From Chlamydoabsidia padenii (Eukaryota; Mucoromycota; Mucoromycetes; Mucorales; Cunninghamellaceae), in NCBI GenBank assembly GCA_025330725.1, contig JAIWND010000020.1, positions 372,001 through 436,000 on the forward strand: a stretch of DNA of 64,000 bases. Reading direction: 5' to 3'. Below the pieces are notes generated by a model, which worked only from the letters and a program-made list of their open reading frames with translations, was not told the origin of the DNA and ran no database searches. Position 1 is the first letter of the stretch. Every line of letters begins with the position of its first letter. Shown here piece after piece: positions 4,534 through 61,020 of this stretch. The position numbers and the translations under genes are program-made.

Positions 4534-5640
4534 GATGAAACAAGATGAAAGAGAAGAAAGGATTTGGACAGGAGTTATTCTATAGACATTTTATAGTCTC
4601 ACTTCTCGTTGTGAGACATGGCTCAGCTTTAACCATAAAAGAAACTAAAATTGCTCAGTATCTAATCCAATGATAAGCCAAATAATAGTATCAGTTGATC
4701 TTTTCATTAAATGAACTCATCATCTGCCCCTCTTTTTTTTCTCCCACCCTCGTTGATCAATGAATGGTTTAAATCCCGACAGGTAGAAGGATCGCACTGA
4801 CCTTGAACCGGTAAAGGGTTATTATCGAACCGAATATTACACAGTGGATTATTACCTGAATACGCGGATCGGGGTTCCCGCTTTAATTTCCAAATAATCC
4901 AATGGAGACTCATGTGCTTTCTTTCTCCCATTCGAACTCTATCTCTCTCTCTCTATCACTTTTTTATAATTTGATGCCAATTCAAAATGAACAACAACAC
5001 CAGCAACACCGCCTCCAATATTGGGAGTGGGAGTTTACATAGTAGAAACACTATCGCTGGATACGCTGAATCCATACGTTTTGACTTTTTTTCCAAAAGA
5101 TACAAGCTCCTGTTGACACACTATTGACTCAATTTCGCCCACCAGGATCAATGACAGATGGGCCGGGATTTGAATATCGGGGGGATCATAAAAACATGGA
5201 TGAATCTACTATTTTATTCTTATAATTCATGCAGTACATATATCTGGCTCCAACTCACACCCAAATTCTCTGCTTAACCTTTTTTTCCTTAGTTGGCCTG
5301 ATTTCTACGCCAAAGGTCGAGGTTTGAATTTCAGAGCCAGATTCTGCATGAATTTCTTGATTAGACGAACCCCCTTTCACGGTCAGAGGTGGTCTACATG
5401 ACGAGCAATTTGCGCTTGAAAAAAAAATCAAAGTCTTTTCGCCCAATTTGGCCCGAGATTCATGGCCAACTTCATGCAAAGGTGATCCATCCTCGCCTAT
5501 GCCGATTTTATTTTGGGACATCGGTTTCCCAACTAAACCCGCACGAGTGCTACAGATAGACAATTAAAAAAAAAATGCCTGTTTTATTTATGATTATTTA
5601 GTTGATTAAAAAAAGTAATCATGTCAAGTTAAACACTAAA
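4534..5640. other. Inter-P450 spacer with relic repeat
   Basis: No supportable gene. It holds the P450-1 upstream region with a promoter-type element at 4768-4778, an exact copy of that element at 5164-5174, and one copy of a dispersed repeat (about 5335-5450) that reappears near 31.94 kb. From 5545 on it is the 3' flank of P450 copy 2, duplicated from copy 1. Confidence 0.6.
4768..4778 (-). promoter_or_regulatory. TTCAAATCCCG-type element, P450-1 upstream
   Basis: TTTAAATCCCG, 235 bp before the P450-1 ATG. The paralogue has TTCATATCCCG at the corresponding place. Confidence 0.4.
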
Positions 5641-5840
5641 CTAGGGGTTCAGATGGATAGAATCAGGTCGAGGAATAAATCTGACTTGATAAGATTGAGG
5701 TTGAGTCACGAGACCAGCATTTTCAGCAGCAAACAAGTCAATGGGTGCTTCTTTTCCAGTCTTGTCCAAAGGTGGTGCGATGGTACTTTTGGCAAATAAT
5801 CTTGTGCAAACATGAAACATTTCCACTTCAGCCTATGAGA

Positions 5841-5871
<31 letters not shown>

Positions 5872-7853
5872 GGGGATCGAGTTAATACATGGTATGGATT
5901 AGCAAATAAGCTTCCTTTACCAAGTGGATCCCAGGGCAGAGGCGTCTATATTGTCAACACACACGTTAAAAGAAAGAGTCAATGGTTAATACATAGTACA
6001 TATTTAATGTAGTTCCGCATAATTCATTTTTGTTTTACCTTCCCCAGCCAAAAAGATACATGTCGCGTTGATTGATGGTACCATTTGCGGAAGATGACAT
6101 TGTTCGAGTGTTATCCAAAAATCGGTCAGGGTTGAATATTTCAGGATCAGTATAGACGTCAGGGTTCATGTGCATACCAACCGTGTTGCCAACTAATACG
6201 GTTCCCTTGGGAATCAAATAGTCCCGTACAACAACTATCAAAAAAAGAAAGAGAGGGAGTGAGATTGCGTTTAACAAAGTATTCATCTTACTTACTGTCT
6301 TCAGTTGATACATGAAGAAGACCCAAAGGGACGGCAGATCGGAATCGGATACCTATGTGAATAGAGTTTAAAAAGGATTGATGATGAGTACAATGGAAAT
6401 GAGTAAACTATTTCAAGTTGACTTGCATTCTTTTTGTACCGAGATCAAATAGGGCAAATGATCACGTTCTTCAAAGGCAGGGAGACGACCATGGACTTGC
6501 ACAAAACCATCGATTTCAGCTTGAATCTTCTTTTGGACTTTAGGATGGTGAGAGAGAACGGCAATCGTCCAATTGAGGGAGACGGAGACAGTATCCGAAC
6601 CAGCAGCAAGAAGATCAGCTAATCAGCACAAAAAAAGCTATGTGAGTATATGAGATGTAACGACCTTTTCTACTTTTTACTTACACATAATCACAATAAT
6701 ATCTTTTTCATCCAGTTCATACTCTTCTTGAAGTGCCACAACGTTTTTGACCAAGCAGTCGGCATCACTTTCCAAGGCTTCTTTAATAAGTCGCTTGATG
6801 AGAGGGTCGCGTTGATTGGTGATAAAGTCGTCGAATATACGTTGTTTTCCATTAAGGAAGCTCAAGCGCTTCACTGCTGGTAGGAATTGAGATAGATCAC
6901 CTTCTGCTTCACCGTACTTCATGCCTAATTCTACATTGTGCATGATTTCCTATATAAAAGAGTGAGTCCAAGTGTGTGTGACCTGAAACCACTTTTTACC
7001 TTGAATAGAGGATCTTCAATGGAGGTGACACGTTTACCAAAGTTTGTTGTCAAGATCACATTTAACGAAAAAGATTGCAAATAAGAGATAGGATCGATTT
7101 GACCATGACGACCAGTATCAGTGATAAATTGATTGACCAGATTGTCGGCTTCCTTTAACACAAGACCATCAAGTTCCTTGACACGTTGTGGAGCCAAGAT
7201 TTTTAAAGAGACAATACGGGCTTGTTTCCATTTCTTGTTGGCGTTGGCGCTAGTGACACCCCTAGCGAATGGGTTTGCAGTTAGTTTCACACAATATGGT
7301 GGTATTAATATAAATACTTACTTTCCTTGGTGACTGTAATATTCAAAAAAGGTGTGAACAGGTCTATCGGAAGTCACCGCACCATTAGTCATAAAGATGT
7401 CATGAGCAATATAGGGATCAGCGATGACCACCCAGTTTTGGTTTCCCATTTTGAGTTGAATGAGAGGTCCTATAATTACAAAAGCGTTCAGCAATGGGCG
7501 TATTGTTTTCTTTGTCTTGTACTTTACCAAGTTCCTGGTTCCATTTAGTTAATGTTGCTCCTGGTAATTCACCAAGAGAGAGAAGGTGACCTGAAAGGAA
7601 AAGAAGAAGAGAGAAATGAAGTGAGTGCCTTTATATTCAATCCCCGTCCGCATAAAAACCAGCCAATCAACTACCCCCTCTTACCAAAATAAGGCAGTCG
7701 TGAGCCTGGCATGGGGATCGACTTGTATACAGCTTTTTTCTGTTGTTTTTTTGATGCTGCATAGAATACGGTAATCCCAGTTGCCAAAGCAGCAGCAGAT
7801 GCCAACATCACTTGATGTTGGCTGTTGATATTTGTTTTAGAGAGGTCGAACAT
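5641..7853 (-). CDS. Cytochrome P450 monooxygenase, copy 2
   Basis: Paralogue of the preceding P450 with the same exon plan, stop context and start context (MFDLSKTNINSQ versus MFDLSKTSINSQ). It has the same haem loop FGWGRRLCPG, again split over a tiny exon at about 5930-5954, and the ESIR-type ExxR junction. The I-helix reads AAGSDTVS where copy 1 has GGGSDTTS, so the residue after the conserved Thr is Val rather than Thr. The N-terminal hinge is about five residues shorter. Every exon frame is open, so both copies look functional. Substitutions cluster in the I-helix and the substrate-recognition half, compatible with divergence in substrate range (inference). The A-run in the penultimate intron is 26 nt here against 40 nt in copy 1. 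Confidence 0.92.
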
Positions 7854-8347
7854 GATGAATAATGGAGGAGAAAGGAAGAGGGAGACAGGCGTATTTTATA
7901 ACCTTGGCGTTTTTTTGATGCTCATTGTAATACAGTACCCCACTTTTTTTTTGACAGTTAGTCTAACACTTTATAGTATGTTTTCGAATATTTCTAAATG
8001 CAGAGGATTTCTTATTATATACTCTCGTTTTCATTATATGACTACCCATGACTTGTCCCACTTTTTGTTGATCAATGAGTAGTTCATATCCCGAAAGGGT
8101 CACACAGACCATGGACCGGTAAAAGGACTTTAACCGTAGTAAAGTAGTCCAGTAAAAGGGTTTTCACGGAATACAAGCTGCTGATTAATGTGGGCTCTGC
8201 CGGGCTGAAGCCATGCATGATCTTTTTACAATGAGAAACTTTACCAGCCAATGAAAATCAGACAAATTTTTTAAATTCCGCTGTCGATTTCGTCTGTGTC
8301 ATCAAAAAAAGTGTCACTTTTTTTTTCGCTCTTTCTTTTACTCAACC
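7854..8347. other. Divergent promoter region P450-2 / RIB3
   Basis: No gene. Candidate elements are TTCATATCCCG (8083-8093) for the P450 and TTAAATTCCG (8271-8280) for RIB3. A pyrimidine-rich stretch with T runs lies directly before the RIB3 ATG. Confidence 0.5.
8083..8093 (-). promoter_or_regulatory. TTCAAATCCCG-type element, P450-2 upstream
   Basis: TTCATATCCCG, 230 bp before the P450-2 ATG, at the position matching that in copy 1. Confidence 0.35.
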
Positions 8348-9168
8348 ATGCCTCAAAAGCAGATGGATACAGAATTCAACTCGGTAGAAGATGCGCTAAA
8401 GGATTTTGGTAAGTTTGTTTGGATTCTAATAACAAGAAATGACGTTGTGTCAAGTCTAATTGTTATAATTTTGTGGGCATTGGATGTAGCGGACAACAAG
8501 TTTGTACTTGTAATGGATAATGAAGACCGGGAAAACGAAGGTGATTTGATTATTGCTGCTGAAAAGGTGACTACCGAACAAATGGCTTTTATGATCAAGT
8601 ACTCAAGGTAGGTTTTAAAAAAAAAGAGGGGGGGATGGACATTGGTAAAAAAAAAGAACTAATGGACCTCTTTTTTTATTTTTTTCCAATTAGTGGCTAT
8701 ATTTGTGTACCAACCACTGGTGAACGCCTAGACGAACTCTCGTTGCCCTTGATGGTGAACAAGAATACGGAATTGATGCGGACTGCATATACGATATCAG
8801 TGGATTATGCTCATGGAACAACAACAGGTATCTCAGCCCATGATCGCGCGTTGACGTCTCGGAAACTAGCGGATCCGACCTCACGACCTGACGATTTTTC
8901 ACGACCAGGACATATTCTACCATTAAGATCAGTACCTGGTGGTGTCTTTAAACGATTTGGACATACAGAAGCCGCAGTGGATCTGTGTGTATTGGCTGGT
9001 TTGCCACCGGTTGCTTGTATTGGTGAATTGGTGAAAGAAGATGATCTGCAAGGGAATATGGCTCGGCGGGATGATTGTTTTGCCTTTGCTAACCGACATG
9101 GTATCAAGATGATCACTATCAAGGATTTGATTGCTTATAAACAAAGAGTAGTTGGATCCGATGCATAG
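8348..9168 (+). CDS. RIB3: 3,4-dihydroxy-2-butanone 4-phosphate synthase
   Basis: Converts ribulose 5-phosphate to formate and the four-carbon precursor of riboflavin, using Mg2+. Exons 8348-8408, 8490-8607 and 8694-9168 join in frame to 217 residues, typical of the stand-alone fungal enzyme. Family motifs are all present: [11 protein letters not shown] (acidic metal/substrate loop, residues about 31-41), [33 protein letters not shown] and GHTEAAVDL. The first ATG after a pyrimidine-rich leader was taken as the start. There is no GTP cyclohydrolase II domain, unlike the bacterial RibBA fusion. It converges on the riboflavin kinase gene 262 bp away. AATAAA at 9264 probably serves 3' processing. 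Confidence 0.96.
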
Positions 9169-9356: not shown

Positions 9357-9358
<2 letters not shown>

Positions 9359-9405: not shown

Positions 9406-9408
<3 letters not shown>

Positions 9409-9430
9409 GAAGCCTATTCTATGTATGATG

Positions 9431-10128: not shown

Positions 10129-10863
10129 GCAGAAATAAGAGAGAGAGAAGAAGACAAAGTAGTTTGGAAAAATCAGCGGGGATTTGAAAAATTAAGCTTT
10201 TTTTCGGCGATCCAAAATTAGGGAGAAAGCTCTTCTTTCTTTTAATCGACTTGTCAAATGGATGACTGACCACTCCCGACTCTTCTTGGTGCTCGTTAGT
10301 TGAATAAGTATCTTTACTGGAAAAAAAAAGATTCAGATGTATTGGAATCAGGGTGACCATGCCTTTAAATACAATTCATTAAAGGTAAAGTCGAGTTGGT
10401 ATAAACAAGACTTCTTATTAATGTGTTATTTTTATTTTCGATAGACCTGGATAGGATAAAATGGCTCGTACGTTTGGATATTGAAACGTTAGTAAAGGAG
10501 GAGGGGGTGTAAAAAACAGACCGTCTAACTATGGTTTTTATAAAATCGTCCTTCTCGAACACCTACTCGTAAACACAACATTACATAATCCTGTATCCTC
10601 ATCATCATTTTATATATATATTGTTTAGAAGGAAGGTGCACTTGTTATTGTGAATAATATGGCATTTAACAAGGATGGAAAACATACTGGGCAAACGAAT
10701 ATACCTAATAGTTTTATCTCGGCTTAGATCCCCTAGACACATAATCCCTATTTTTATGACCAATCAATAAAGACAAATTATTTCATTTATTTGAACAAAA
10801 AAGAAGATAATTTTTTTTATTATAATAGACCAACTATAATGTAGATAGGTCACCAAAGATTTT
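10129..10863. other. Intergenic, FMN1 promoter side and C2 gene 3' flank
   Basis: No gene found. It contains the FMN1 upstream element and AT-rich DNA; the short frames here have no recognisable content. Confidence 0.5.
10177..10188 (-). promoter_or_regulatory. TTCAAATCCCCG element, FMN1 promoter
   Basis: Reads TTCAAATCCCCG on the FMN1 strand, about 50 bp before its ATG. Confidence 0.5.
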
Positions 10864-11634: not shown

Positions 11635-11645
11635 CGGCATTTGAA
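11635..11645 (-). promoter_or_regulatory. TTCAAATGCCG element, C2 gene promoter
   Basis: Coding-strand reading TTCAAATGCCG, about 91 bp before the ATG. The same G variant occurs at the cullin promoter. Confidence 0.5.
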
Positions 11646-11874: not shown

Positions 11875-11885
11875 CGGGGTTTCAA
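11875..11885 (+). promoter_or_regulatory. CGGGGTTTCAA element, SFT2 promoter
   Basis: Weaker match to CGGGATTTGAA, 109 bp before the SFT2 ATG and followed by a long T/pyrimidine tract. Confidence 0.35.
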
Positions 11886-11993: not shown

Positions 11994-12980
11994 ATGTCCA
12001 ACACAACAGAAAACTCGTTTCGAAACTCATTGCGCAACTTTAACCTGACACGAACTTCCTCACCTATAGCTTTACCCACTTCAACCACTCCAACGGAACC
12101 AACGACACCATTTGCCTCGTTTCGGGACTCGGCTAGTAATCTATTTACCAATGTATCCTCTTCGGTGCAAGGTTACTTGCCATTGAATGGTGGTGAAGAA
12201 GAAGAAGAAGAAGCTTGGTATCAATTATCTCGGGTAGAAGTAAGTTTTTACAAAATGATGTCCAATGTATAACTAACACTCTTTTATATAGCGGGTCATG
12301 GCTTTTGCCCTGTGTCTAGGTCTTGGCATCCTGTGCTTCTTCTTGGCAAGTGAAAAGGACTGACTATTGCTATGCATCATAATACTAATGAACCATTCCA
12401 TCTCTTTAGGCCTTTTCTTTGTTTTTGTTTTTGATTCCCATCTCTCCTGGCAAGTTTGCCGCCACATTTACTTGTAAGTATCCAATATATATTTATATAT
12501 ATATATATATATATATACATGGATCGAAAATACTAAATCACTTTTTTTTGCAGTGGGTAGCATTCTACTTTTGGTCAGTATTGCTATGCTTCGTGGTCCT
12601 ATGGCACATATCAAACATATGATTTCTATGGAACGCCTTCCTTTTACCGTCTCCTATGTTGGATCAATGGCATTGACACTCTATGCATCATTAGGGGTAA
12701 GCATTAATAAAAAGTGACTTTTTTGTGTATCTCATCTCATGTTGTTGTTATTAGGCTAGAAATTATATCCTAACGATTGTGTTTGCGATCATTCAAATTT
12801 TGGCTTTGGCATGGTAAAGTATTATATATAAAGAGGATGATCATTCTTATGACTGATCCCATTCTTGTTTGTTTGTTTGTTTTTAGGTATATTGGATCTT
12901 ATATTCCCGGTGGTGTATCTACTTTACGGTATGGATCGGCTTATATTGGAAGAAGGGCGGCATCCATTTTACCCATTTAG
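11994..12980 (+). CDS. SFT2: SFT2-family Golgi membrane protein
   Basis: Four-TM protein of the SFT2 family, implicated in endosome/Golgi retrograde fusion. A Ser/Thr-rich cytosolic N-terminus (SNTTENSFRNSLRNF..., acidic EEEEEE near residue 65) precedes the TM core: RVMAFALCLGLGILCFFLA, then AFSLFLFLIP, LGSILLLVSIAML, FTVSYVGSMALTLY and a final hydrophobic pair ending at AWYIGSYIPGG. The GSAYIGRRA-type tail is also family-like. Introns interrupt at about 12241, 12345, 12473, 12698 and 12815, each with a GT donor. I began at the ATG at 11994 because the frame upstream is only a T-rich leader. Polyadenylation signal AATAAA near 13074. Confidence 0.9.
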
Positions 12981-15637: not shown

Positions 15638-15989
15638 ATTCAATATAATTTTATACTGTGTCCCCCCTCCCCCTACATATATATAATACATCCCACACGC
15701 ACACACACATATTATAACTGTTTATTAACTTTGTTTAAAACAATAAAAAGAATCATTATTCATACTACATTCTATTTTGTCTTGTCTTTATAAAGGGGGT
15801 TGTTCTTTTTCTTATTTATTAAAAAATTAAAAAAGGTGCAGAATGGGCATACAAAAGAAACACCGTTGGCCAAAAACTGAAAATGCCAAAAAAAGAAACG
15901 TTTCAAAACCCGCACCCAATCACATCCATTTATTTTTGAATTCCGACGTTGAGATTTATATAGCACATATTAATTTTTTCTCCATCGGA

Positions 15990-16062
15990 GCTCGCTTAGC
16001 TCAGTTGGTTAGAGCGTGGTGCTAATAACGCCAAGGTCACAGGTTCGACCCCTGTAGTGAGC
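15990..16062 (+). tRNA. trnI(AAU): tRNA-Ile (anticodon AAU)
   Basis: 73-nt cloverleaf. Acceptor GCTCGCT pairs with AGTGAGC (one G-U). The D arm is AGCTCAGTTGGTTAGAGC. The anticodon loop CTAATAA has anticodon AAT, and the T arm contains GGTTCGACCCC. No intron. The discriminator A is at 16063 and a T run follows within 10 bp as a Pol III stop. Confidence 0.97.
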
Positions 16063-17049
16063 ATATTTTTGCCTCTTTTGAGCGTCGGGATTTCAAATGA
16101 TATTGTCGTTTGAACTATAAGACGAGTATTCCTTTTATATATCAGGTGAAGAATAAGGTTTTTATTAAAAGTAAAGTACACATATATATATACTATTCTA
16201 TTATCGGAGTCTATGGCTGAATTGGTTATATCGAAGCATCTAGATGTTAAAAGATTTATCGAGAGAGAAAGAAGAGAAAGGAGAAAGAGACAAAAAGAAA
16301 TTTCCAGATTGATATCTATTTTTCCAGAGAAAATCACTTTTTATCTCCGACAATATTTGTCGGTATCGGTTCTTGGTTTTTGAACTCCACTCGCATTATT
16401 TCTTTTTGTACTCCTTTCCTTTTTTACTTTTACTTTACATCCTTCTAGTTTATTCCATCTATCCTATCCTTTATATTTTATTAATCATATTATATCATTA
16501 GTGTAGTCTAAAATATTCTAGTATTTTATTATGTTATATATATATGTTATCTACTTTTACAAAAATAAAGAAAAAGGACCAACTCAGTCTTAATCCAAAT
16601 ATCTTTTACGACCTGATCCCTTCCACTATTGAAATATTCATGCAGTCTTTTATTACGGCTGATACGGCTATAACAGGTATGTGTTATGGCAACAAGGGTA
16701 GTAGAAGTATGTTTTGTTTGTATAATATGTAGTGAGCACCAGAATCTTTTCAGTAAGATTTAACCTTTAAGATGTACTTGGTAATTTGAGAGGAAAAGAA
16801 AAAGATCGACCGAGGTAAGTCGGGATTTGAAAATAAAATAAAAAAAGGCTTTTGTTCCAAAGAATGAGCAATAAAGACAATAGTTACACTTGTTAAGTAA
16901 CTTGATAATAAGAGAGGTAGCTTGTAATAAAGACCTTATGTTTTGTTTTGAAGTTTTTTATCAAAAGAGAAACTTGATAAAATTGAAGAAAAAAATGAAT
17001 TCAATTGACAAGATGTGATATTTATACTAATTGTGAATTCAGGGGTAAG

Positions 17050-17350: not shown

Positions 17351-18079
17351 TGAAAAATTGAGAAACTGGTCCAAGTCAAGTCAAAAAGCATTAGGTTGGA
17401 CACGCCTGATACGGCTAGATCTAGTAGATGTAAAAACACCTTAGGTTCAGATAGATTGTCTTGTATGTACTAAAAGTAATGAGCTCTAGAATATTTTGTA
17501 TAAGGCTCAATCTTTTATGTTTTTCTTGTTAAAAAAGAGAATATGCAAAAAGAGGTCCCAATTTGGATATCGGAATTTGAAAATAGAAACAGCCAAAAGT
17601 TATACTAAATGGATTCAGGGGAAGACAACGTTGTAATCAGCATATCATGCATTATCTAAACATAAAGTTTTATACATGATCCATGCATCATCACTTACAC
17701 ATAGAAGAATATATGTATAGGAAGGAGGTAAAAGATGTCAAACTATCAGCTGGACACAAGTATTTCTTTAAAAGTTCAGGTCAGAACATATCAATTGACT
17801 TGCTGTCAGTCATTTCGGAGCCTTGTCATCAGAACAAGAAGCTTGGAATACCAGGTTTTTCACCGACATCTTTCCGGTGTCAGTGAAGTAGGGTTCTTAT
17901 TTCAAAGTGGCGGTTGAAAGTTGTAGTTGTGTTCTCAGCTGGTATTAAGGAGTAATCGTATGTGCAATGGCTATTTTTTTTTGTCATACCGATTGTTCAT
18001 GCCTGTATTAGTCAACTTATTCTCACCCTTCTTGATTGAACTAAAATTAAAAAAAACGGTTCACTTGATTTTATGAATA

Positions 18080-18090
18080 TTCAAGTCCCG
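18080..18090 (+). promoter_or_regulatory. TTCAAGTCCCG element, FMO promoter
   Basis: One mismatch to TTCAAATCCCG, 84 bp before the flavin monooxygenase ATG. Confidence 0.5.
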
Positions 18091-22200: not shown

Positions 22201-22211
22201 CGGGATTTGAA
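22201..22211 (-). promoter_or_regulatory. TTCAAATCCCG element, UBA rhomboid promoter
   Basis: Exact match on the gene strand, 92 bp before its ATG. Confidence 0.55.
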
Positions 22212-22424: not shown

Positions 22425-22435
22425 CGGGATTTAAA
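22425..22435 (+). promoter_or_regulatory. CGGGATTTAAA element upstream of the 22605 gene
   Basis: One mismatch to CGGGATTTGAA, 170 bp before the ATG. Confidence 0.4.
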
Positions 22436-25504: not shown

Positions 25505-26940
25505 ATGGGTTTTGGTCATCTGATTTTTTCTTTTTCACACCATATAAAAGAGCTTTTTAAATTCTTTTCAACTTTCCTTGGGGATGCTCACCCCTTTAAC
25601 AAACAACAACAACTTGTCAGTCAATTCTTGGATGAGAATATGGCTGGCACCCCTCCTTTGAGAGGGAAGGGTACGGGGCTTCGGCCAATGGTAAGTGAAA
25701 AATAAAAGGAAACCACATACTTCCCACATAATATTAACTGATATTTCATCCTCCGCTTATTCGACGAAAAATTCAAGTTACCCGTAAGCCTGTCACAGCC
25801 AAATATGAAAAGCCTTATTCTCACTTTTCTGCCATTCGATGCTAATGATTAAAGTAGCTATACTGGTATTGAATCTTATACCCAACAATTTTTGCTTAAT
25901 AAACCAAGTGCTCAGACCTTTGTGTCTGTCAGATCAAGTTCAAGATGTTGCCAACTAGTGATGGAGCTCATCTTCAACAAAAGAACAGATTCTTGAAATT
26001 CCGACATTTTGGTACCTCAATTCCCGTAGGTGATTCCAAACTACTCGAACATAAAGGATGTTTATGCTGGGCAGAATTACACCATTAAGCAACCCAATTG
26101 AAAAGAAATTTATGATAATCATGAGTAGATTCTTATTTTTTTTACTTTCCCTCGTAATCCCCCTGGTATTATTAACAAGTACTATACTTGGCGGCTGTTT
26201 CAGTATTTTCTTCCTTGGATTTTTTTTTAAAACTCGAATATCTTCTTCGGTAGACCACGTAGCACTATCAAAGTTGGCTTGCCAGACCCGGAAATTCATG
26301 CAGATCTGCATTTGAATATTGAAAACCCGATTTCGTTCGCACGACTCTCGACTATTCAACGGTATAAAAACCGGGGTTTGAATATTTCGGTTCAAGTCTC
26401 GCAAATGTCGCGGAACTCTGGCGAATCTGGTGGTCTTATGGACTGTAAAGAACAAGTCTCTGATAATTTTGTGGGTATTGACACCATCTCTGACTTTGTA
26501 AATACGTTTTACTCCAAGTATTCCTTTGGCAATGACAAAGAAATTGATCAAGGGGATGCACGTTATGAAAACTCTGCCGACAGCATTGGTGGCGATGAAG
26601 ACACAGAGAATGAAGGCATTGGCGATGGTGCAATGGGAAAAAATGGCCCACACTATGCTAAAGGGGTAACAAAAACAACTTTGTATACTCGAAACATGAT
26701 AAGCATCAACCCGACCTATTGATACAGCAGTTGACCTTTCTTGACCCTCAAACAAATGCAAACATTAATATCTGTCCCTCTAACGTCAATGGGCGTGTAG
26801 TGTTTCCACAATTAGCTGTCGCCTTATTTTTGGAAATTGATGTTGCTTTTGAAAAAAGTAAAAGTTGGTCTCTAAAAATAAAACGTCAGGGGATTCGAAT
26901 TAGTGATACTACATGTCATAATGACTATGAATCCATTTAG
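25505..26940 (+). pseudogene. Possible decayed membrane-protein locus
   Basis: Plus-strand pieces look partly gene-like. A frame at 25505-25691 ends at a perfect GTAAGT donor. A frame at about 25771-25990 is interrupted by one TAA. A strongly hydrophobic double segment (MSRFLFFLLSLVIPLVLL then ILGGCFSIFFLGFFF, about 26119-26235) is followed in another frame by a 147-codon acidic stretch (26279-26722) and a 73-codon stretch to 26940. The opposite strand also has a 268-codon open frame (25955-26761). I recognise no family and cannot choose a strand with confidence; a degraded gene is my best reading. Confidence 0.25.
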
Positions 26941-30329: not shown

Positions 30330-30964
30330 TGATCCTGTGGCGGTGGTTCTGGCTGTTGATATTACTATTACTATGTTGTATATATTCTGTGGATAACTAT
30401 TGTTTGTTTTTACCTCCTTTTATGATAATAAATAAAACCTGTCTTCTTTACCCTGTGATACTTTAAATCATGTCTTTTATATCCTGCTAAGACTTGATCG
30501 CATCCGTTACCTTTGGGGGGGGGTTAATGACAAGTCAGATCCAAAAATACAACTACATGAATTCGTTTTCAAAAATTCAATATCTGACTTTAGATATGCA
30601 ACAGCTAATAGTGGAAACACCATATAGCTTGGAGATACCATCTGTGATCATTCGATGAACAAAAACCAAGTTCACCCGATAAACTCCGCTTTGGTGGCGA
30701 ATCTCAAACATTGACCTGACTGACATAAGGGGTTTGAAAATTTGACTATAAAGTATACATCGTAGAATACATATGGCATTGATCAAGTAGTTAGAAATAG
30801 TTTCGCTAGTAATCCTACGGCAAATTCTGGGGCCGACCGGTGAGTGTGTCGATTGGCGGGATTTGAACCGTGTTTGCTTGAGCGCAAAAGTGGAAAGCCA
30901 CGTGGAGGCCACGTTTTTGTTTTCAACTCCCTCCCTCAGTGCACGGTCTTTTCATAAAGAGTAC

Positions 30965-33039: not shown

Positions 33040-33050
33040 TTCAAATTCCG
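33040..33050 (-). promoter_or_regulatory. TTCAAATTCCG element, 33014 candidate gene
   Basis: One mismatch to TTCAAATCCCG, 26 bp before the ATG, in the opposite orientation to the gene. Confidence 0.4.
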
Positions 33051-35792: not shown

Positions 35793-36194
35793 TTTTGTAT
35801 ATATATATAAAAAAAGATCGTGTCGGGATTTGAATTCGGGTAGATGAGTATGTGGTAAAAATGGCCGTGAAGGTGGATGTAAAACGAGTGTAAAAGGTGG
35901 GGAAGAGGAAAGACAATCAAAGCTTCATGGATTGCTTTCTAAAGAAGTTAAAAAAAAAAACAAAAAGTAAAAAAAACAAGAAGTAAAAAAAGAGGCGGGA
36001 CAAATCAATTTAATTTTTTATTACTGCCGTACAGCCGGGTAGCACAAATAAAGTCAATTCGGTGTAGTCTGGACTAGCGGGTAGAATACGGTATTGTGAG
36101 TTAAGGGAGACAAGTAAGATAGAGAGAGAGAGAGAGAGAGAGTATATAAAATAAAATAAAAAGTAAACTAGAGGGGAGAGGGGAGAAGCCTCTA
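35793..36194. other. Subtilase promoter and cullin 3' flank
   Basis: No gene. Contains the promoter element at 35824-35834 and a (GA)n run at 36121-36142. Confidence 0.6.
35824..35834 (-). promoter_or_regulatory. TTCAAATCCCG element, subtilase promoter
   Basis: Exact match on the gene strand, 32 bp before the subtilase ATG. Confidence 0.55.
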
Positions 36195-39653: not shown

Positions 39654-39664
39654 TTCAAATGCCG
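39654..39664 (-). promoter_or_regulatory. TTCAAATGCCG element, cullin promoter
   Basis: G variant of the element, 66 bp before the cullin ATG; orientation opposite to the gene. Confidence 0.5.
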
Positions 39665-45927: not shown

Positions 45928-46233
45928 TATAGAATGGGGGAGCAAGAAGTATTAATGTGTGAATGAGTGTGTAGTTATCAAGTATAGGGAAATGACTAAC
46001 AGATATACTAGAGTTTTAAAAAATAATGAATGTAATGGCTACTGATTGGTGATAAAAATAAAAAAAAAGTGAAAGAAATGGGAAAAAGGAAATTAGCGGA
46101 TGGGCCAACATGAAAAAGGATAATTTTCGAATGCCGCTCGCAGAAATATAATTTATAGTCCGCTCCTCGTCATTGGTGAAAAATCTTTTGTCTCTCCCTC
46201 TTTCTTTTGTGCTTTCATAATTAGAAGGCCACT
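45928..46233. other. Divergent promoter myosin V / cyclin K-like
   Basis: 306 bp with no gene. A single element variant (46126-46136) lies about 98 bp before the cyclin ATG and 199 bp before the myosin ATG. Confidence 0.55.
46126..46136 (+). promoter_or_regulatory. TTCGAATGCCG element between myosin V and cyclin K
   Basis: One base from the TTCAAATGCCG variant. Serves one or both divergent genes. Confidence 0.45.
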
Positions 46234-48129: not shown

Positions 48130-49204
48130 ATGGCTGATCTTCCTGACTTTATGACCGACCCTAATGCCGTCTTGAATGACGTTGACCATGAATGGCGCTA
48201 TGGCCGTGTCCCTGATTACAAGAAAGTCAATGAAGCCTTCGAATTGGGTAAGATCATGTTTACTGTTTATTCTCTACTCCAATCCATCTCTTTCTAACAT
48301 ATACTCTTACTCGGTTTGTTTATATATAGAAAAAACAGTTACCCATGAAGAAGGATCCTTGGGTTGGTTGGTTTCTAACTTGGTCAAGGTAGGGGGGATA
48401 TCGGGATTTGAAATTTACCGTTTGGGGGATTTTAAAAAAAAAGCTATAATTGACTAATCCACCTTTTATTACATAATATATAGAACTGGGAAAAGGAAAT
48501 GTCTTACAAGCTTCGAGCTGATCAAATCCGTACTATCAATCCTGAAAAGTACAAGTTCTCTGTGAATGGACATGAATTCCATACTGTGGAAGAAATGTTA
48601 AAGGTAAGCATCGCGAGTTGAAAAAAAAAATGGGCCGATGTTGACGACTTTTTTTTTTTTTTAGATCGGCACTTATAATGCTCTTATTGGTGATACTGAA
48701 CTCTACAAGGCCAGTGAACTCGATTTCAGTGAATCCCACAAACTGTTCAAGCGTTGTCTTCGTACCTTTTCTTGGGAATGCATAGAAGTTTACAGTGGTC
48801 CTCCTGTGGTTGCTTTCAAGTGGCGGTAAGTAAAAGGTTATGGGGAATCGATCAAGCTAACTTTCTTTTTTTTTTTTTTGTACTTAGTCATTGGGGCACG
48901 ATGGTGGGTGACTTGAATGTGACCCTTGGAGACGGCAAAAAGTTACAAGCAACTGCCTCGAACGAAGTAGTAGAATCATTTGGTGTCACAGTCGCTCATG
49001 TCAATGACAAATTCCAAGTGGAAAAGGTAATTTGAACATTGAATGTTACATTGTATTAAACCATCTCTTCGTCATTTGCTATAGCTTGAAACCTTCTATG
49101 ACCCCAACGATTTGATGATTCAACTGTCAAAATACAAGAAGAACGGCGATCAAACTGAAGAAAAGTCCGCTTCCACTGGTGGAAAGTGTCCTTTCCTTCC
49201 TTAG
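48130..49204 (+). CDS. Pathogen-related-protein-like, NTF2/SnoaL-fold
   Basis: Six exons (introns at about 48248, 48389, 48604, 48826 and 49027) give roughly 240 residues starting MADLPDFMTDPNAVLNDV. Conserved blocks match the plant and fungal pathogen-related protein family: EWRYGRVPDYKKVN, TINPEKYKFSVNG, IGTYNALIGDTELY, FAWECLEVYSGPPVV-like (FSWECIEVYSGPPVVAFKWR), HWGTMVGD, and a C-terminal ETFYDPND. The fold is an NTF2-like cone with a central pocket. The role is not established in fungi; detoxification or lipid-like ligand binding has been suggested by fold only. Ends GGKCPFLP, giving a Cys-Pro near the C-terminus. Very regular codon use suggests high expression (inference). Confidence 0.85.
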
Positions 49205-49307: not shown

Positions 49308-49329
49308 CGGGATTTGAATTCAAATGCCG
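49308..49329. promoter_or_regulatory. Back-to-back palindromic pair of the TTCAAATCCCG element
   Basis: CGGGATTTGAA (49308-49318) abuts TTCAAATGCCG (49319-49329), forming a 22-bp inverted pair between two convergent gene ends. Confidence 0.6.
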
Positions 49330-51720: not shown

Positions 51721-53279
51721 AATAGTGATACACTGGTGACGATGATGATGGTGGTAATGCCTTGATGAAGGTCCATTTTATTAGTTAGTACATATTTCTT
51801 TTATTAATAAAGTTGTCCCTCTTTGTTTATATACCTGTTATGTATATTATGATGTCAATGTGTGGGATGGAAGGAATGTGTGTGTATGGTAAAGATCAAG
51901 AGGAAAAGCAAAAGCGTAATAATAAAAAAAACGATACACAATAATAAAAAAACGAGAGAAGAAAAAAAAAAGTAGGAAGGCAGGGGTAAAATAAAAAAGC
52001 TAAACTATCAAATCAAGACAGAGTAGGGGAATAGAAGTGGAGGGAAAGCCAAGGGGTAAAAAGGCCTTTAGCATGAAAGACTGTCGGGTTTTGAATAAAA
52101 GATCAAAGGGAGGATCATTGAAAGGAGGAGTGTATGCTCTCTCTTACACTATCTTTCTTTCGTATGATATCAAAGAAAAAAAGGGGGTAAAGAAGCTAAT
52201 TGTTTAAATAAAAAGAAAAACTGAGGAGATGCAAAGGGGAAAAGAGTAGGAGTAAAAAAAAAAAAAACATAGGTGTGGAAAATTCCAGAGCCGTCTGCAC
52301 AGTATAACTTCTCCTATTTCCTTCATGTAGCATGTTTCTCGATACCGAGTTGTAATTATAAATGACAGACTCCGCATATATTTATTTGGTAATGGGACAA
52401 AGGGGGCGATCTTTTTTTGGGGGGGATCACAAGACCAGAGGCCTCTTTTTTGTTGTCGTTGTTGATTACTGCTATGAAGGATGGAGTTTTGAACGTCTTT
52501 TTCGAAATTTTACCACAACTTTATATTTTGAACTGAGTCAAATATAATTATAGTTGCCGAGTGCCTGAGATTAGATCCTTCAGTGAACATTTTAACATCG
52601 GATATGTTAATTTAAGCGGACATTAAGTTCGTAGGAATCTTTTTTCAGTGGTTACTTACGCGTTCCCGTCCTCAAGATCCATTCTTGAAAACACCCAACT
52701 TAAGTGAAAATAATCAGCTTGATGTCGGGATTCGAACAGTGGTAAAGTTACCCAATCGAATCAAATAAAGATAATCATTTGGTGTCGGGTTTTGAATGTG
52801 CATGAATAACATCGCTGGCTTTTAAAAAATGATCCCCGACTAATAGAGGCCAGTGGTGCATGGTCAATATGAAAAGACAGTTTCATTATATAAAAGAGAG
52901 TAACAACCTAATTTCCATCAAGAGACAAGAGGCGCATGATTAAAGGCAGTTTTATTATATAAAAGAGAGTAACAAATAAATAACCAATAGCTTATATCTA
53001 ATTCTAATCTAATGGGGACCATGTTATTGCCTTGGCATTACCAGTGCGACCAGTTCCTACTACAGTTACTGATTTCCAGCAACGACGCCATTCACATGTT
53101 TGATAGATAGTCTGTTCCATGAGTTAATGTCGAGTACAAGGCCACAAGATGGTTGTCCATCTAATGGGTAGCTGTCATGGTTGTTTTAGAGAGAGAGAAA
53201 AAGAACGTGCTGGTGGTAATAGTGTTGAGCTTTAAGATCGATGGACGAAAGTGGTTTAATGTTGGGTTTGTATGACTAA

Positions 53280-53609: not shown

Positions 53610-53620
53610 CGGGACTTGAA
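53610..53620 (+). promoter_or_regulatory. CGGGACTTGAA element
   Basis: One mismatch to CGGGATTTGAA, 87 bp before the ATG at 53707. Confidence 0.5.
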
Positions 53621-53706: not shown

Positions 53707-54659
53707 ATGGGGTTGGCAGAGTTCGCCCTCATATCTAGAAAATGGAAACCTGCTACACTTGTACACAAGAAGACTGAAGAATATACTGGTCTACTAGAAT
53801 ATGTAAGAACAACAACATTTGGGTATATAGAAAACAGTAATACTAATTCTCATCTTGACCTTTACTTTTTTAATAAAGATAGCTCTAGATGTATTGGATA
53901 CTCGACTCATCACCATTAGTAAACTTGTACGCACTTCATACCCCCAAGTTTGGATTGATTCTATCCTCTTTTTTACAGCCATTGGTTTTGTCTTACTAGC
54001 GGCTGCCTTCTCTATTGGATTACAAGCAACGGCAAGTCAACGAGACAAACTATGGTACCCTCTCTTAATCCTGGCTGTCCCTGTGTTTATTGCTTTTTGG
54101 ACCTCTAGACGAAGAGCCACTTATTATGTCAAATTGAAAAACGTAAGTTTGGCCCTCCTTATGATCACACCAACAACTCATTCTTCCTTTTTTGTATCAT
54201 TTTTATTTATCCTAGTTTAACGAACTTTTACAGAAATGTCTCAAGGAATTCAATTCGGTAGATACAACACATCAAATCAAATGGCAATATCGTCGGTTAC
54301 GGGAAGATGATACGGCGGCATTATTAGGGTTACCTGGTCCTTTAGGTCGATGGCAAGTAGTGGTGGTTATCGAAGTCATTCAAATCGATCCTGAAGATGC
54401 TCACATGGCGAATGAAGTGGATATGGTACTACCTTCCTATAATGCAGCGGTAGAAGATGTGGTATTGGATATTGGCCCATCGGAGGATCGTCATCCCAAT
54501 GAAGATCGCGATCTTGGTGATGATTCACCACATCCATCTTACGCCTATCCTTCACCTCCAGACTATAGTGGCAATTCATCATCCCCTGACCAGCATATAG
54601 AATTATCTACTCTTCCTCATCATACTTCTCCTCCTCCTACTTACGCTTCACATCATTAA
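53707..54659 (+). CDS. Uncharacterised two-TM membrane protein with Pro-rich tail
   Basis: Three exons (introns about 53803-53876 and 54142-54234) yield about 260 residues. The N-terminal half contains IALDVLDTRLITISKLV and two adjacent hydrophobic helices (ILFFTAIGFVLLAAAFSIG and WYPLLILAVPVFIAFW). A cytosolic stretch with HQIKWQYRRLRED and VVVIEVIQID follows, and the tail is rich in Pro, Ser and His with PPxY-like sites (PPDYSG, PPTYAS) that could bind WW domains of Nedd4/Rsp5-type ligases. I do not recognise the family. The start ATG gives MGLAEFALISRK. Confidence 0.8.
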
Positions 54660-54796: not shown

Positions 54797-54807
54797 CGGG
54801 ATTTAAA
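54797..54807 (+). promoter_or_regulatory. CGGGATTTAAA element, mL40 promoter
   Basis: One mismatch to CGGGATTTGAA, 97 bp before the mL40 ATG. Confidence 0.45.
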
Positions 54808-56309: not shown

Positions 56310-57126
56310 AACAGGAGGGCAAATGTTGAAAAGATGGGAAGAAGAGAAAAATAAATGGGGAAACGACTTTATAACTTTCTTTTTTATAAAAAATTCACAT
56401 CCCGCTCTCTCACAAAAGTCATTAAATAACAAGCAAAGACGACAAACAGACTATCTGTTTTTTAACACCTAATACATTCTCTTTGACTATTACATTCTAT
56501 ATTTTTGGGTAATAACAATCACAGAGAAACATTTCTATTTCCCCTAAATTTAATAACAATACTTTTTTTACAATTTTATATAATCTTTAAAATTTCTAAT
56601 AAAACACTATTTTCTAAATTTTTTTGAATTTCATATGATCATCTGACTTTCAATATTCAAGAAATATCTTATAAAAGTTATATCTCATTAATATTTATAT
56701 ATTTTACTATATCTAATATTATACCTCACCAAGAAATGTTTCTCACAGGGAAAGCCGTTGACCAGCTTTTCCTTTACATCACGTGCTTTTTTGAACGTCC
56801 GACGATGTGGTTTCTATAGCACATAAAAGTCAAACAAAATGACACGCCGTGGTTTTGGTATTTTCTCCCCGAAATTCAAATCCCGTTTACTCCCTCGTTT
56901 AGTTTATTACCTTCCTATCCCCGATCCCACCAGTTAGTTTATATTATATTACCCGTTTGTTTAGTCCCTTTCCCATGAAGATATAAAAAGGCTACCTCCA
57001 ATCAGTGAATAAACGAGGTACAACCCTCCCTTTGTACTTGAATATAAGTATATAATCATAGATACCCTTATTGAAACTCCGATTTTGTGCTTTATATACT
57101 ACATAGAGATTGACAAAAACATGTGA
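56310..57126. other. Very AT-rich intergenic region
   Basis: No gene. 56450-56740 is strikingly A/T-rich. An exact TTCAAATCCCG at 56875-56885 has no assigned gene and lies 240 bp before the tRNA. Confidence 0.5.
56394..56404 (-). promoter_or_regulatory. TTCACATCCCG element, ALG13 promoter
   Basis: One mismatch to TTCAAATCCCG, 85 bp before the ALG13 ATG. Confidence 0.5.
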
Positions 57127-57196
57127 GCGCGGTTGGTTAAGTGGTATAATCTTCGCCTGCCACGCGAAGGGCCGGGGTTCGATTCCCCGACCGCGC
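57127..57196 (+). tRNA. trnG(GCC): tRNA-Gly (anticodon GCC)
   Basis: Acceptor GCGCGGT pairs with ACCGCGC. The anticodon arm CTTCGCCTGCCACGCGAAG gives anticodon GCC, and the T arm is CCGGGGTTCGATTCCCCG. The discriminator A is at 57197. No intron. Confidence 0.97.
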
Positions 57197-57426
57197 ACTC
57201 TTTTGAACGGCTCAAACGGAGTTTTAAAAATTAGGAACACCGATCCAATCGATTGGATAACTTTTGCAATTCTTTTTTTTTTTGAGAGAGAGAGAGAGTC
57301 CCTCCTTTTTCGTTTCTTCCTGACTTTTACCTTAATAAACATTATATATATTTATCCCTCCCGCTCTCTCTTTTTTATATATAAATCGAAGGCTGACGGA
57401 AGAATTACAAAGGGGATTGTATCATC

Positions 57427-58327: not shown

Positions 58328-59231
58328 AACACTTTATATTATTTAATACCCCCCCCTTTACACACGATCCTTCTTTTCTTTAATCAATCTAGTAGTGGAA
58401 TCATCCTATTTATAGTGTATCTTTTATCATCCTCCCTTCCATTTTGATTGTACTTGTGATGTATTTATTCAAAATGTCAATAAAGAAACTAATTGTATAT
58501 CATTATGATGTTACTTTTTACGGCAAAATAGAGAAGGGTGTCATCGGAGTTCCTTGCAGCCGGAATCCTCCCATTGATCTACATGGTTTGATTAATCATA
58601 TGATAATGGGTCTATCAAAACTCGATCGCGAAATCCGTGCCTGTCGGTATTTGAAATCTAGTAGAAGAGAAAACTGCATGATGTATTTCTTCTTATACCC
58701 ACTTTAATCAGGTATACAGTAGAAGAAAAGAGATTGATTGATATAATATAAGGCTATATTTTAATTACCATAATCATTGACCGTATCATTCACTACTGGT
58801 ATCTGTTTCTCATTATTCCTTATATGTAACGACAGTCTTTTTACCATTATCCTTGTTTTACAACGCTTTATTCTCAATAGATACATAGACTCTTCTTTTA
58901 TTGGAAAGTAGATAGTTGTGCCTGTTTGTACTATATTTATTATGTACTTCTCATCGTTTGTCATTTGGAAAAGGTTGCCTTTTTTGGAAGAATGGTCTTA
59001 CCGATGAATCAAAACACTATTCGACTCTTTTCCCATCTCTCATTGGTAACATCAAATAACATCAATGTGGTACTAAGCCTCGAAAAAGTAGCTCATGCAT
59101 GATGTGGTTTATCAGGGGGGGGATGATCATTTTTTGAATCCCCGGAGTTTTGATTTCAACCCTTTTGATTTTTTTTTTTCATTTTGAATTTCCACCCTTC
59201 TTTCCTACATCAATGTCAATTATGAACAACA
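58328..59231. other. Intergenic, 0.9 kb
   Basis: No supportable gene. A short frame at 58444-58707 has no recognisable content. The CorA promoter has only a weak element (GATTTCAACCC, about 59150). Confidence 0.5.
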
Positions 59232-60882
59232 ATGTCCTTCAACCAAAATACTCTCAGCTATCGTAAAAAGTCCCGTGCTTACTCTCACCACTCACAGTCT
59301 TCCCTTAAAGAAACAACCTCCAATCACCAACGACGTCGACACTATTCTGCTGGTGAAGATGATTTCGACGACATGGATGTAGAAGCTGATGTGCTATATC
59401 CTCAATACGGTTACCAAGATGATAAAACAACTAGTCCTCAAACTCCAAATCTACGTATCTTTGATCATGGTGTAGCTGAAGTCAAACGGAAAATGTCTAT
59501 TGGCTCTACTTTATCAAGAACCATGAGCAAACAAAGTCGACTCTATGGTGAACCCATGGTATGTATGTATGTATACGGAAAACAAAACAACATGACTAAA
59601 TATTTTTATTACTTTTATTGACATAGAAAACGGAACATTCTTTACCTGAAGTGGCACGGTATCATGTTTACTCCTCACAAGAAAATGGCAAAACGATAGC
59701 CATCCAACAATTATTATCATCGGACGGACGAGACGGACTGGAAACGATTTTAGAAACAACAGGTTGGTGGGTAGACTGTCTGACCCCTACTGACGAAGAA
59801 ATGCATGTACTGGCGACCCTCTTCCGAATCCATCCTCTTACTGTAGAAGACATCTCGGCGCGCGAACCATGCGAAAAGATTGAACTCTTCCCCAACTACA
59901 CCTTTGTCTCCTTTCGATGCTTTGATGTAGACAATGATCAGATCTGGCCTTACAACTTTTACAACCTCATCTTCAAGCACGGATTACTCACCTTTCATTT
60001 CAAGTCTTCACCTCATCCGGCTCGAGTCCGACACCGTTTGGATCAAATCAAACACCACATGCTGATCGTACCTGATTGGATTCATTATTGTCTCATTGAC
60101 GATATTACCGATTCTTTTGCTCCCATCATCAGTCAGGTGGAAATGGAAAGTGTGTCGATTGACGAATTGTCTTTGGTGCTGCATAAATCGGAACGGTCTG
60201 ATATGTTGAAACGAATCAGTCGGTGTCGTAAACGGGCAACTCAACTGTCACGATTATTAGCGGCCAAGGTGGATGTCATGAAAAGCTTGATGAAACGGTA
60301 TGAAGAAAAATGGCAACGGGCAGGTGGATATAGTGCTCTCATTCAAGATCAATTCTCCACTCTTTCTCCTGAAGAGGTCATGGCAATGAAAACTTTAAAT
60401 GAAGTATTACTCTATCTTGGTGACATTCAAGGTATATATATATATAAATAAATGGGAAATGACTATATAAACTGATTCTCTCTTTTTTTTTTTGTTTGTG
60501 TCATTAGATCATTTACTGACGATGGTACAAAACATCAATCACTACAATCGTATCCTATCTAGGGCTCATACCAATTATCTTGCTCAAGTTAATGTGGATT
60601 TATCAATGACCTATAGGACAACAAACACGGTGATGAATCGTCTGACCTTTTTAGGTACCATCTTCATCCCAATCATCTTTATTGCTGGTCTATGGGGTAT
60701 GAATATTCAGGTAAGAATAGTAATAAGGTGACATAATGAACTTGACTTTTTTTATTATAATATTGTTTTAGGTGCCTGGTAAAGAATATGTGGATCTCAC
60801 TTGGTTCTTTTGGATTCTCGGTGGAATGTTTTCCTACTGTACTCTTCTAACATTTTTTGGAAGAAAGTGGAACGTATTGTAA
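59232..60882 (+). CDS. CorA/Alr-type Mg2+ transporter
   Basis: Four exons encode about 490 residues. The N-terminus is polar and disordered. The cytosolic funnel domain includes PLTVEDISAREPCEKIELFP (a CorA core motif) and long helices (HKSERSDMLKRISRCRKRAT). Two C-terminal TM helices follow, the first ending in GLWGMNIQ, which carries the GMN selectivity motif, and the second WFFWILGGMFSYCTLL. The short C-terminal tail ends GRKWNVL. The extended N-terminus and sequence favour the fungal Alr1/Mnr2 branch (plasma or vacuolar membrane) over mitochondrial Mrs2, which lacks this layout. Introns about 59559-59624, 60433-60506 and 60711-60771. Confidence 0.92.
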
Positions 60883-61009
60883 ATGTAGTTACTAGTTATT
60901 CCCCATCTCTTTATCGATTAATAATAAAACCAATCACTTTTTTTTTTTTTATGCCTGTTTGATTTTATATAGTGGGGAGCATGATCTCTTTTTTTAATTG
61001 GCTGTTATT

Positions 61010-61020
61010 TTGACATCCCG
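61010..61020 (+). promoter_or_regulatory. TTGACATCCCG element, proteasome gene promoter
   Basis: Two mismatches to TTCAAATCCCG, 108 bp before the PSMA4 ATG. No clear PACE-type proteasome element was seen in this promoter. Confidence 0.35.

Follow-up and report, generated by a model that had tools for sequence, protein, structure and literature searches.

In the window, a 64,000-nucleotide stretch of the Chlamydoabsidia padenii genome, the 11-bp word TTCAAATCCCG recurs near genes as varied as those for a riboflavin kinase, an S8 protease, a cullin, and a proteasome alpha subunit. The genes downstream of its sites belong to unrelated Pfam families, in agreement with the remark of an earlier note that they share no function. 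All eight exact copies listed in that note are present, as compared to an expectation far below one (0.06), and none of 100 shuffles reached eight. Sites with at most one mismatch number 30, as compared to 1.61 expected. The 11 variants that the note had named are likewise all present, one of them at 10178 rather than 10177. The sites are as follows.

4768..4778, plus strand: variant TTTAAATCCCG, 239 bp upstream of the gene with ATG 4533.
5164..5174, minus strand: exact TTCAAATCCCG, 635 bp upstream of the modelled ATG at 4533.
8270..8280, plus strand: variant TTTAAATTCCG, ∼73 bp upstream of the gene at 8348.
10178..10188, minus strand: variant TTCAAATCCCC, ∼55 bp upstream of the riboflavin kinase gene (ATG 10128).
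11635..11645, minus strand: variant TTCAAATGCCG, 95 bp upstream of a C2-domain gene.
11875..11885, minus strand: variant TTGAAACCCCG, 114 bp upstream of the gene at 11994.
15902..15912, plus strand: variant TTCAAAACCCG, upstream side of tRNA-Ile (15990-16063).
16086..16096, minus strand: variant TTGAAATCCCG, downstream side of the same tRNA-Ile.
16821..16831, minus strand: exact site, 1.35 kb (1348 bp) upstream of the ATG of an FMO-like gene; flank of a small family (relatives at 17571 and in L013).
17571..17581, minus strand: variant TTCAAATTCCG, flank like that of a site in L013 (small family).
18080..18090, plus strand: variant TTCAAGTCCCG, 89 bp upstream of the FMO-like gene.
22201..22211, minus strand: exact site, ∼96 bp upstream of a rhomboid/Der1-like gene (minus strand, ATG 22109).
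22425..22435, minus strand: variant TTTAAATCCCG, 175 bp upstream of the gene at 22605.
26319..26329, plus strand: variant TTGAAAACCCG, 81 bp upstream of the ORF at 26405.
26372..26382, minus strand: variant TTCAAACCCCG, 28 bp upstream of the same ORF.
30857..30867, minus strand: exact site, GG directly before it; 532 bp past a stop.
33040..33050, plus strand: variant TTCAAATTCCG, near a gene start that the models did not resolve.
35824..35834, minus strand: exact site, ∼36 bp upstream of the S8 protease gene (minus strand, ATG 35792).
39654..39664, plus strand: variant TTCAAATGCCG, 70 bp upstream of the cullin gene (ATG 39588).
46126..46136, plus strand: variant TTCGAATGCCG, in a divergent region; neighbouring gene ATG 45927.
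48402..48412, minus strand: exact site, inside a modelled intron (gene start at 48130).
49308..49318, minus strand: exact site that abuts 49319 back to back; convergent stop codons lie on either side.
49319..49329, plus strand: variant TTCAAATGCCG, inverted pair with 49308.
52085..52095, minus strand: variant TTCAAAACCCG, 369 bp upstream of the gene with ATG 51720.
52726..52736, minus strand: variant TTCGAATCCCG.
52786..52796, minus strand: variant TTCAAAACCCG.
53610..53620, minus strand: variant TTCAAGTCCCG, 92 bp upstream of the gene at 53707.
54797..54807, minus strand: variant TTTAAATCCCG, 102 bp upstream of a mitochondrial ribosomal protein gene (Pfam MRP-L28).
56394..56404, plus strand: variant TTCACATCCCG, ∼90 bp upstream of a glycosyltransferase gene (ATG 56309).
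56875..56885, plus strand: exact site, in a divergent region shared with tRNA-Gly (57127-57198).
58645..58655, minus strand: variant TTCAAATACCG.
61010..61020, plus strand: variant TTGACATCCCG, 118 bp upstream of the proteasome alpha-subunit gene (ATG 61128).

The genome-wide count called for in the earlier note (34.2 Mb) gave 3811 exact copies of TTCAAATCCCG and 2 of the reversed word, and WWTTYRAAHNCCGMY had 6087 matches as compared to 35 for the reversed pattern. A sample of 264 kb, comprising the window and 200 kb outside it, was used for closer description. A degenerate pattern collected 133 sites from this sample, while the reversed pattern found none and 30 permuted patterns averaged ∼3.5; a weight matrix at a threshold of at least 11 bits returned 194 matches, as compared to 7 in reversed sequence. 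The full element spans ∼15 bp, WWTTYRAATCCCGMY. Within the variants that the collecting pattern allows to turn up, the TT-Y-R-A-A half reads TTCAAA in 81 of the 133 sites, TTTAAA in 21, TTGAAA in 17, TTCGAA in 7, and TTCAAG in 6. Position 7 is T in most sites, giving an ApT, and A or C in 39, and the bases preceding the word (−1 and −2) are mostly A/T. An E2F/DP site, the core of which is TTTSSCGC, was rejected as an identity for the element, since only 56 of 133 sites have C directly after the CCG block and the base preceding that block varies.

Position relative to genes was examined for the 185 matrix sites outside a 240-bp repeat family, with gene starts taken as the ATGs predicted by self-trained gene models (built without transcripts). 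The sites are concentrated between genes, with 149 intergenic (1.73/kb), 18 coding (0.13/kb), and 18 intronic (0.55/kb). They peak 80 to 100 bp before predicted ATGs (19 as compared to 3.2 expected), and the 60 to 140 bp interval, which was chosen after the first histogram of distances, contains 38 sites as compared to 13.2 expected (p = 1.8e-9; 12 versus 4.6 in the window and 26 versus 8.7 outside it). In that first histogram, 32 of 103 intergenic sites lay 25 to 150 bp before an ATG, where 14.1% were expected (p = 8e-6). A site is present 50 to 150 bp upstream of 41 of 110 genes and 50 to 150 bp downstream of the stop in 11 of 113. No comparable peak before ATGs is seen in the 264-kb sample for TGCATGAA/T, the intergenic word that ranks second in frequency, indicating that the gene finder alone does not create the peak of the element. 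The earlier note had made its reading depend on such a positional peak, which is present upstream of predicted ATGs in the sample. Its more specific statement, that most sites lie 25 to 120 bp before the ATG, describes the named variants well (eight of 11, at ∼55–120 bp before the modelled ATG) but only two of the eight exact copies (22201, ∼96 bp; 35824, ∼36 bp). Of the other six exact copies, three precede an ATG by 635, 1348, and ∼550 bp, one follows a stop by 532 bp, one lies in a modelled intron, and one is between convergent stops; among the remaining named variants, 22425 lies at 175 bp, and 33040 and 46126 are without a well-modelled start of their own gene. Relative to the gene, 28 sites have the same orientation and 22 the opposite, with no clear bias, bearing out the note's “either orientation” and leading to rejection of a directional core element of the TATA-box type.

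A pyrimidine tract accompanies the element on its gene side. Of 40 genes with a site, 35 have a C/T run of at least 12 within the 80 bp preceding the ATG, as compared to 24 of 60 genes without a site (Fisher p = 1.5e-6), the site being upstream of the tract at a median distance of 47 bp. An outward C/T tract is found at 84% of near sites, as compared to 37% of random near places, and at 31% of sites more than 200 bp from an ATG, as compared to 19% of random far places. It is this tract, instead of the A/T runs previously described as following or preceding the sites, that adjoins the element; A/T runs of at least 8 within 60 bp are not enriched (28 of 112 intergenic sites as compared to 24.9% of random intergenic places).

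Nine of the 10 proteasome alpha loci in the genome were also examined. The element lies upstream of the ATG in the window gene (−118) and, outside the 264-kb sample, in L033 (−126 and −107), with weak matches in L034 (−108) and L040 (−122). L033 and L034 are paralogues in which the element block has been retained though the promoter has diverged. The other five loci have no site near −110; L035 and L038 have none, and L036, L037, and L039 have sites only farther away, the matched exon of L035 to L037 being one without an ATG.

We consider it probable that WWTTYRAATCCCGMY is the site of one abundant sequence-specific protein, a putative general regulatory factor with a role like that of Reb1 or Abf1 at Pol II promoters. 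Such a factor would bind the double-stranded element in either orientation, ∼90 bp before the start codon. The pyrimidine tract, the probable point of transcription initiation, lies ∼45 bp farther downstream, and the factor would probably keep the promoter nucleosome-free and help place the Pol II machinery. Protein binding, chromatin opening, and importance for expression are what we infer from the sequence in this scheme. The element shows two features of a general regulatory factor site, namely many unrelated genes and, for part of the sites and with respect to predicted ATGs, a fixed promoter-proximal position with no orientation requirement. Its abundance, intergenic concentration, ATG peak, lack of orientation bias, and unrelated genes also favor the earlier note's core promoter or chromatin element over a pathway regulator.

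An unlikely alternative is that the element serves as a chromatin boundary, insulator, replication-origin, or transcription-roadblock site, presence at promoters being only part of its role. Of the 149 intergenic matrix sites, 99 have no predicted ATG within 200 bp, which also counts against the main reading and leaves room for a broader role in chromatin or for gene starts that the models missed; sites occur in eight of 23 convergent intergenic regions, and the inverted pair at 49308-49329 lies between convergent stops. Weighing against this alternative are the peak at 80 to 100 bp, the coupling to the pyrimidine tract, and a site density that is lowest in convergent regions (0.86/kb, as compared to 1.43 in tandem and 1.80 in divergent regions, all before removal of the repeat family).

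It is doubtful that the element is CDE/CHR-like and bound by a LIN54-type CXC protein (MuvB/DREAM) turned general promoter factor. A TTYRAA core adjoining a CG-rich block is reminiscent of the CDE/CHR of animal cell-cycle genes, the genome has six E2F/DP-family exon matches, and 109 of 133 sites fit the LIN54 consensus TTYRAA (PMC4974476). However, 24 of 133 sites are misfits, TTGAAA and TTCAAG both being tolerated, the CCG block keeps a strict gap of 2 bp (116 matches) rather than the usual CDE/CHR spacing of 4 (8 matches), and the element extends beyond cell-cycle genes. Searches of the genome with queries lacking a positive control gave no CXC gene by Pfam TCR (0 matches), nothing for the LIN54 DNA-binding domain (no match at E values of 10 or below), and no match for LIN9/DIRP; two back-translated CXC signatures likewise gave 0, the first of them being unable to detect certain known CXC repeats. 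With the same search tool, matches were obtained for the E2F, Ras, proteasome, and E2 families.

Very unlikely is a signal for N6-adenine methylation, at ApT within AATC/GATT, marking promoters in an early-diverging fungus. Such fungi carry 6mA at ApT in and near genes, with Rhizophagus contexts that include AATC and GATT (PMC8298701), and most sites have the ApT created by T at position 7. Nevertheless, the 39 of 133 sites with A or C at this position are without ApT, and an ApT-only methylase would leave the outer TT, CCG, and MY bases free to vary.

The TFIIIC idea of the earlier note does not hold up, and we regard an extra-TFIIIC (ETC) site, i.e., a B box without a tRNA gene that is TFIIIC-bound near Pol II genes, as highly improbable. 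The tRNA B box has the core TTCRANTCC and the full consensus RGTTCRANTCC, with a 5′ GG and invariant TTC and TCC bases. The nine bases TTCAAATCC fit this core, sites flank tRNA-Ile, and one lies ∼250 bp upstream of tRNA-Gly. In place of the GG, however, the element mostly has A/T (G at −1 in 11 and at −2 in 13 of 133 sites). Exact and single-change words, counted before repeat-family removal, carry another base at the C of TTC in 22 of 56 cases and at the first C of TCC in 19 of 53, as compared to 4 changes in the CG following the B-box core. TTCRANTCCCG occurs 44 times in the 264 kb, as compared to 4 for TTCRANTCCCH; GGTTCRANTCC is rare (218 genome-wide versus 97 for a control); and 20 sampled stretches in which ARAGORN found no tRNA nonetheless contain sites. 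The element thus differs from a B box in lacking GG, in having other positions invariant, and in its added CGMY.

Equally hard to credit is that the element is part of dispersed repeats or transposons, without selection, the origin that the earlier note had named as fatal to its reading if it explained the motif entirely. One tandem family with a ∼240-bp unit, partly in fold-back elements, carries one TTCAAAACCCGCT per unit, and a second small family of ∼4 sites joins 16821 and 17571 of the window to 303 and 639 of L013 (62–196 bp, 70–77%), yet the first accounts for only 9 of 133 sites, and among the remaining 124, compared by low-complexity-filtered flanks of 100 bp on each side, 24 resemble another site's, with five pairs of at least 60 bp. 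Copies are not alike beyond the word, the flanks of 34 exact sites having no common pattern except A/T at −1 and −2; most of the sites are of non-repeat origin.

Returning to the putative general regulatory factor, a broader claim can be made tentatively, at somewhat less than even confidence: one novel putative protein may mark a large share of this fungus's Pol II promoters, and perhaps those of all Mucorales, via a 15-bp TTYRAA + CCGMY site, a lineage-specific general code set at a constant position before a pyrimidine-tract initiator and not derived from any known general regulatory factor. To our knowledge, the promoter rules of early-diverging fungi are poorly described. With a very frequent word at a fixed address, one duplex could pull down the factor; the element would allow promoter annotation from sequence, and work on Mucorales would gain both in gene annotation and in the design of promoters.

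Among known systems, metazoan housekeeping promoter elements (ZNF143/THAP11 ACTACAATTCCC, DRE, and Motif 1) share with the element a proximal position and many unrelated genes; the ZNF143/THAP11-type ACTACAATTCC occurs 0 times in the 264 kb. The sites of yeast Reb1, Abf1, Rap1, Cbf1, and Rsc3/30 are similarly frequent and promoter-proximal before unrelated genes, although these factors belong to a different phylum. We know of no yeast general regulatory factor site that it matches, and the Reb1-like word TTACCCG has 16 occurrences in the 264-kb sample, a count without a computed expectation. Across yeast lineages, the repertoire of general regulatory factors turns over, and some motifs are nucleosome-depleted in one species only (PMC2897762); with the element described here, turnover of this type becomes testable in another phylum.

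The exact 11-bp word TTCAAATCCCG occurs eight times in the window, as compared to 0.06 copies predicted by shuffles; these are precisely the eight copies listed in the earlier note, and words at most one mismatch away number 30 (1.6 expected). Across the 34.2-Mb assembly (95 contigs), the two strands carry 1909 and 1902 exact copies, while the reversed word, used as a control, occurs once on each. A 264-kb sample, in which the window is joined by twenty 10-kb stretches picked from six further contigs without regard to the word, contains 34 exact sites versus 0.15 expected under a second-order Markov model. Single-change words in this sample delineate the tolerated variation. The initial TT is invariant and CCG is altered only five times in total, while changes concentrate at C3 (to T 12, G 9, A 1), T7 (to A 15, C 7, with repeats still included), and C8 (to T 8, G 7, A 4); A4 changes to G five times and to T once, A5 is altered three times, and A6 changes to G four times and to T once. 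The A count at position 7 is inflated by a ∼240-bp repeat family and drops from 15 to 7 when that family is removed. Combined with flanking preferences for A/T at −2 and −1 and for [AC][CT] after CCG, these data yield the full element WWTTYRAATCCCGMY, farther out than which the flanks show little. The degenerate pattern WWTTYRAAHNCCGMY is found 6087 times genome-wide versus 35 for its reverse, and a weight matrix built from 124 sites (repeat-family sites removed) detects 194 places of at least 11 bits in the 264 kb and 149 of at least 14 bits, versus 7 and 0, respectively, in reversed sequence. By extrapolation, the genome would hold approximately ten to twenty thousand sites, or about one per gene. 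The element is undescribed among the matches listed in the open-licence literature, at the level of titles and abstract openings, for the word or for Mucorales and early-fungal promoter motifs.

Window words and sites left off the parts list
9999: one of the 31 window sites, within coding sequence
25993: one of the 31 window sites
2053, 8083, and 32193: one-mismatch words with changes outside the enriched set

A dispersed repeat family, which could have explained the motif entirely, was sought in the sample. The ∼240-bp tandem family carries TTCAAAACCCGCT once per unit and holds just 9 of 133 pattern sites, leaving 124. Twenty-four of these are linked in 17 pairs by flank similarity (100 bp each side, low-complexity filtered), spanning at least 60 bp in five pairs. 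A second, small family comprises about four element-bearing stretches (16821 and 17571 in the window; 303 and 639 in L013, a locus beyond it) sharing 62 to 196 bp at 70 to 77% identity. A repeat origin was rejected given these small contributions, and the element is mostly not a repeat. The nine sites were excluded from positional and C/T-tract counts, while the second family was retained. At two loci, the ∼240-bp tandem units are arranged in inverted halves as fold-back elements, each unit with a copy of the variant TTCAAAACCCG; in a third locus (L004, 481–1414), tandem units occur without inverted arms. The fold-back elements may be non-autonomous transposons bearing the promoter word of their host.

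Fold-back elements in loci beyond the window
L011, 6099–7533: arms of 408 nt, 99% complementary
L013, 5723–6649: arms of 253 nt, 92%

A gene finder was trained on the sample, and models whose coding sequence reached 240 bp were kept. These number 116, averaging 4.5 exons, and 110 of them have an ATG. Matrix sites outside the 240-bp family (n = 185) are predominantly intergenic (149; 1.73/kb), with 18 each in introns (0.55/kb) and coding sequence (0.13/kb). In a first histogram, 32 of 103 sites lay 25 to 150 bp upstream of predicted ATGs versus 14.1% expected (p = 8e-6). The matrix sites form a single clear peak at 80 to 100 bp upstream (19 sites; 3.2 expected). The 60- to 140-bp interval holds 38 sites versus 13.2 expected (p = 1.8e-9), made up of 12 versus 4.6 in the window and 26 versus 8.7 in the remaining 200 kb (p = 3e-7), these p-values being optimistic because the interval was picked after the first histogram. 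Only two of the eight exact window copies fall 25 to 120 bp before a modelled ATG, the range in which the earlier note placed most copies. A site lies 50 to 150 bp upstream of 41 of 110 genes and the same distance downstream of 11 of 113 stops. Orientation relative to the gene is the same in 28 cases and opposite in 22. Intergenic regions holding a site include 15 of 19 divergent, 27 of 50 tandem, and 8 of 23 convergent ones. Ninety-nine of the 149 intergenic sites are more than 200 bp from every predicted ATG; either many first exons were missed by the models or the element also serves another function.

Several local arrangements were also observed. An inverted pair, CGGGATTTGAATTCAAATGCCG (49308–49329), places two sites back to back in the 180 bp separating two convergent stop codons, where it might act as a boundary or as a roadblock to transcription. 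The product of the gene at 49384–51720 matches a protein of Chlamydoabsidia padenii (Mucorales, Cunninghamellaceae) at 91% identity over 84%. Sites flank tRNA-Ile (15990–16063) on both sides (15902–16096), and an exact site lies ∼250 bp upstream of tRNA-Gly at 57127. Two adjacent similar minus-strand genes at 2212–7853, the second fragmented in gene models, are presumably cytochrome-P450-like. A second intergenic word family is strongly enriched in the 264-kb sample, namely TGCATGAA/TTCATGCA (39 versus 3.8 expected; GCATGAAT, 38 versus 2.5). It may be a further binding site in wide use, and TGCATGAA/T, the second commonest intergenic word, displayed no comparable peak before predicted ATGs in the sample.

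In filamentous fungi, C/T tracts commonly adjoin transcription starts. On the gene side of the element, C + T reach 80 to 84% at 40 to 70 bp. Among 100 of the 110 ATG-bearing models, a C/T run of at least 12 within 80 bp upstream of the ATG was found for 35 of the 40 site-bearing genes versus 24 of the 60 others (Fisher p = 1.5e-6), a contrast that may be partly due to wrongly predicted starts in genes without a site. A tract is present at 41 of 50 near sites, its midpoint a median 47 bp from the site. Outward tracts accompany 84% of near sites versus 37% of random near places, and 31% of far sites versus 19% of random far places. The A/T runs said by the earlier note to follow or precede the element showed no coupling to it in the sample.

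Outside the 264-kb sample, proteasome alpha-subunit genes were examined at eight of ten genomic matches, with the window's own gene as a ninth. L035 and L038 have no site, and L036, L037, and L039 have more distant sites only. The genes at L033 and L034 share one encoded N-terminus but have diverged promoters, in which the site block is among the few pieces alike, as judged by eye.

Sites before proteasome alpha-subunit genes
L033: −126 and −107, 13.9 and 16.4 bits
L034: −108, 11.7 bits
L040: −122, 11.6 bits
Window's own gene: −118, 15.1 bits

The element is predicted to be a protein-binding site on double-stranded DNA, which would account for the absence of any clear orientation bias, its length, and its two blocks around a degenerate pair. 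A LIN54/CHR reading is appealing for the TTYRAA half, given the LIN54 consensus TTYRAA (PMC4974476). A CDE/CHR identity is weakened, however, by the position of the CG block at gap 2 rather than 4, by tolerance of TTGAAA and TTCAAG, and by the absence of CXC and LIN9 matches in the genome, in queries run without a positive control. E2F-family proteins are encoded, since the genome has six exons that match E2F/DP proteins, but the essential core positions of an E2F site vary in the element. The proposed tRNA B box bound by TFIIIC is contradicted by substitution spectrum and flanks, since the flanking GG is replaced by A/T, bases invariant in the B box vary, and the CG that follows the core hardly varies (TTCRANTCC is followed by CG 44 times and by C plus another base four times in 264 kb); GGTTCRANTCC is also rare genome-wide (218 versus 97 for a control). 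A ZNF143-like word has zero copies in the sample.

The element probably works like the sites of general regulatory factors, by analogy with yeast, where the factor repertoire shifts between lineages (PMC2897762); membership of the class in the strict sense would require nucleosome depletion by the bound factor. The element is filed as a general-regulatory-factor-like site because it resembles the sites of the yeast factors in place, in abundance, and in the absence of a functional theme.
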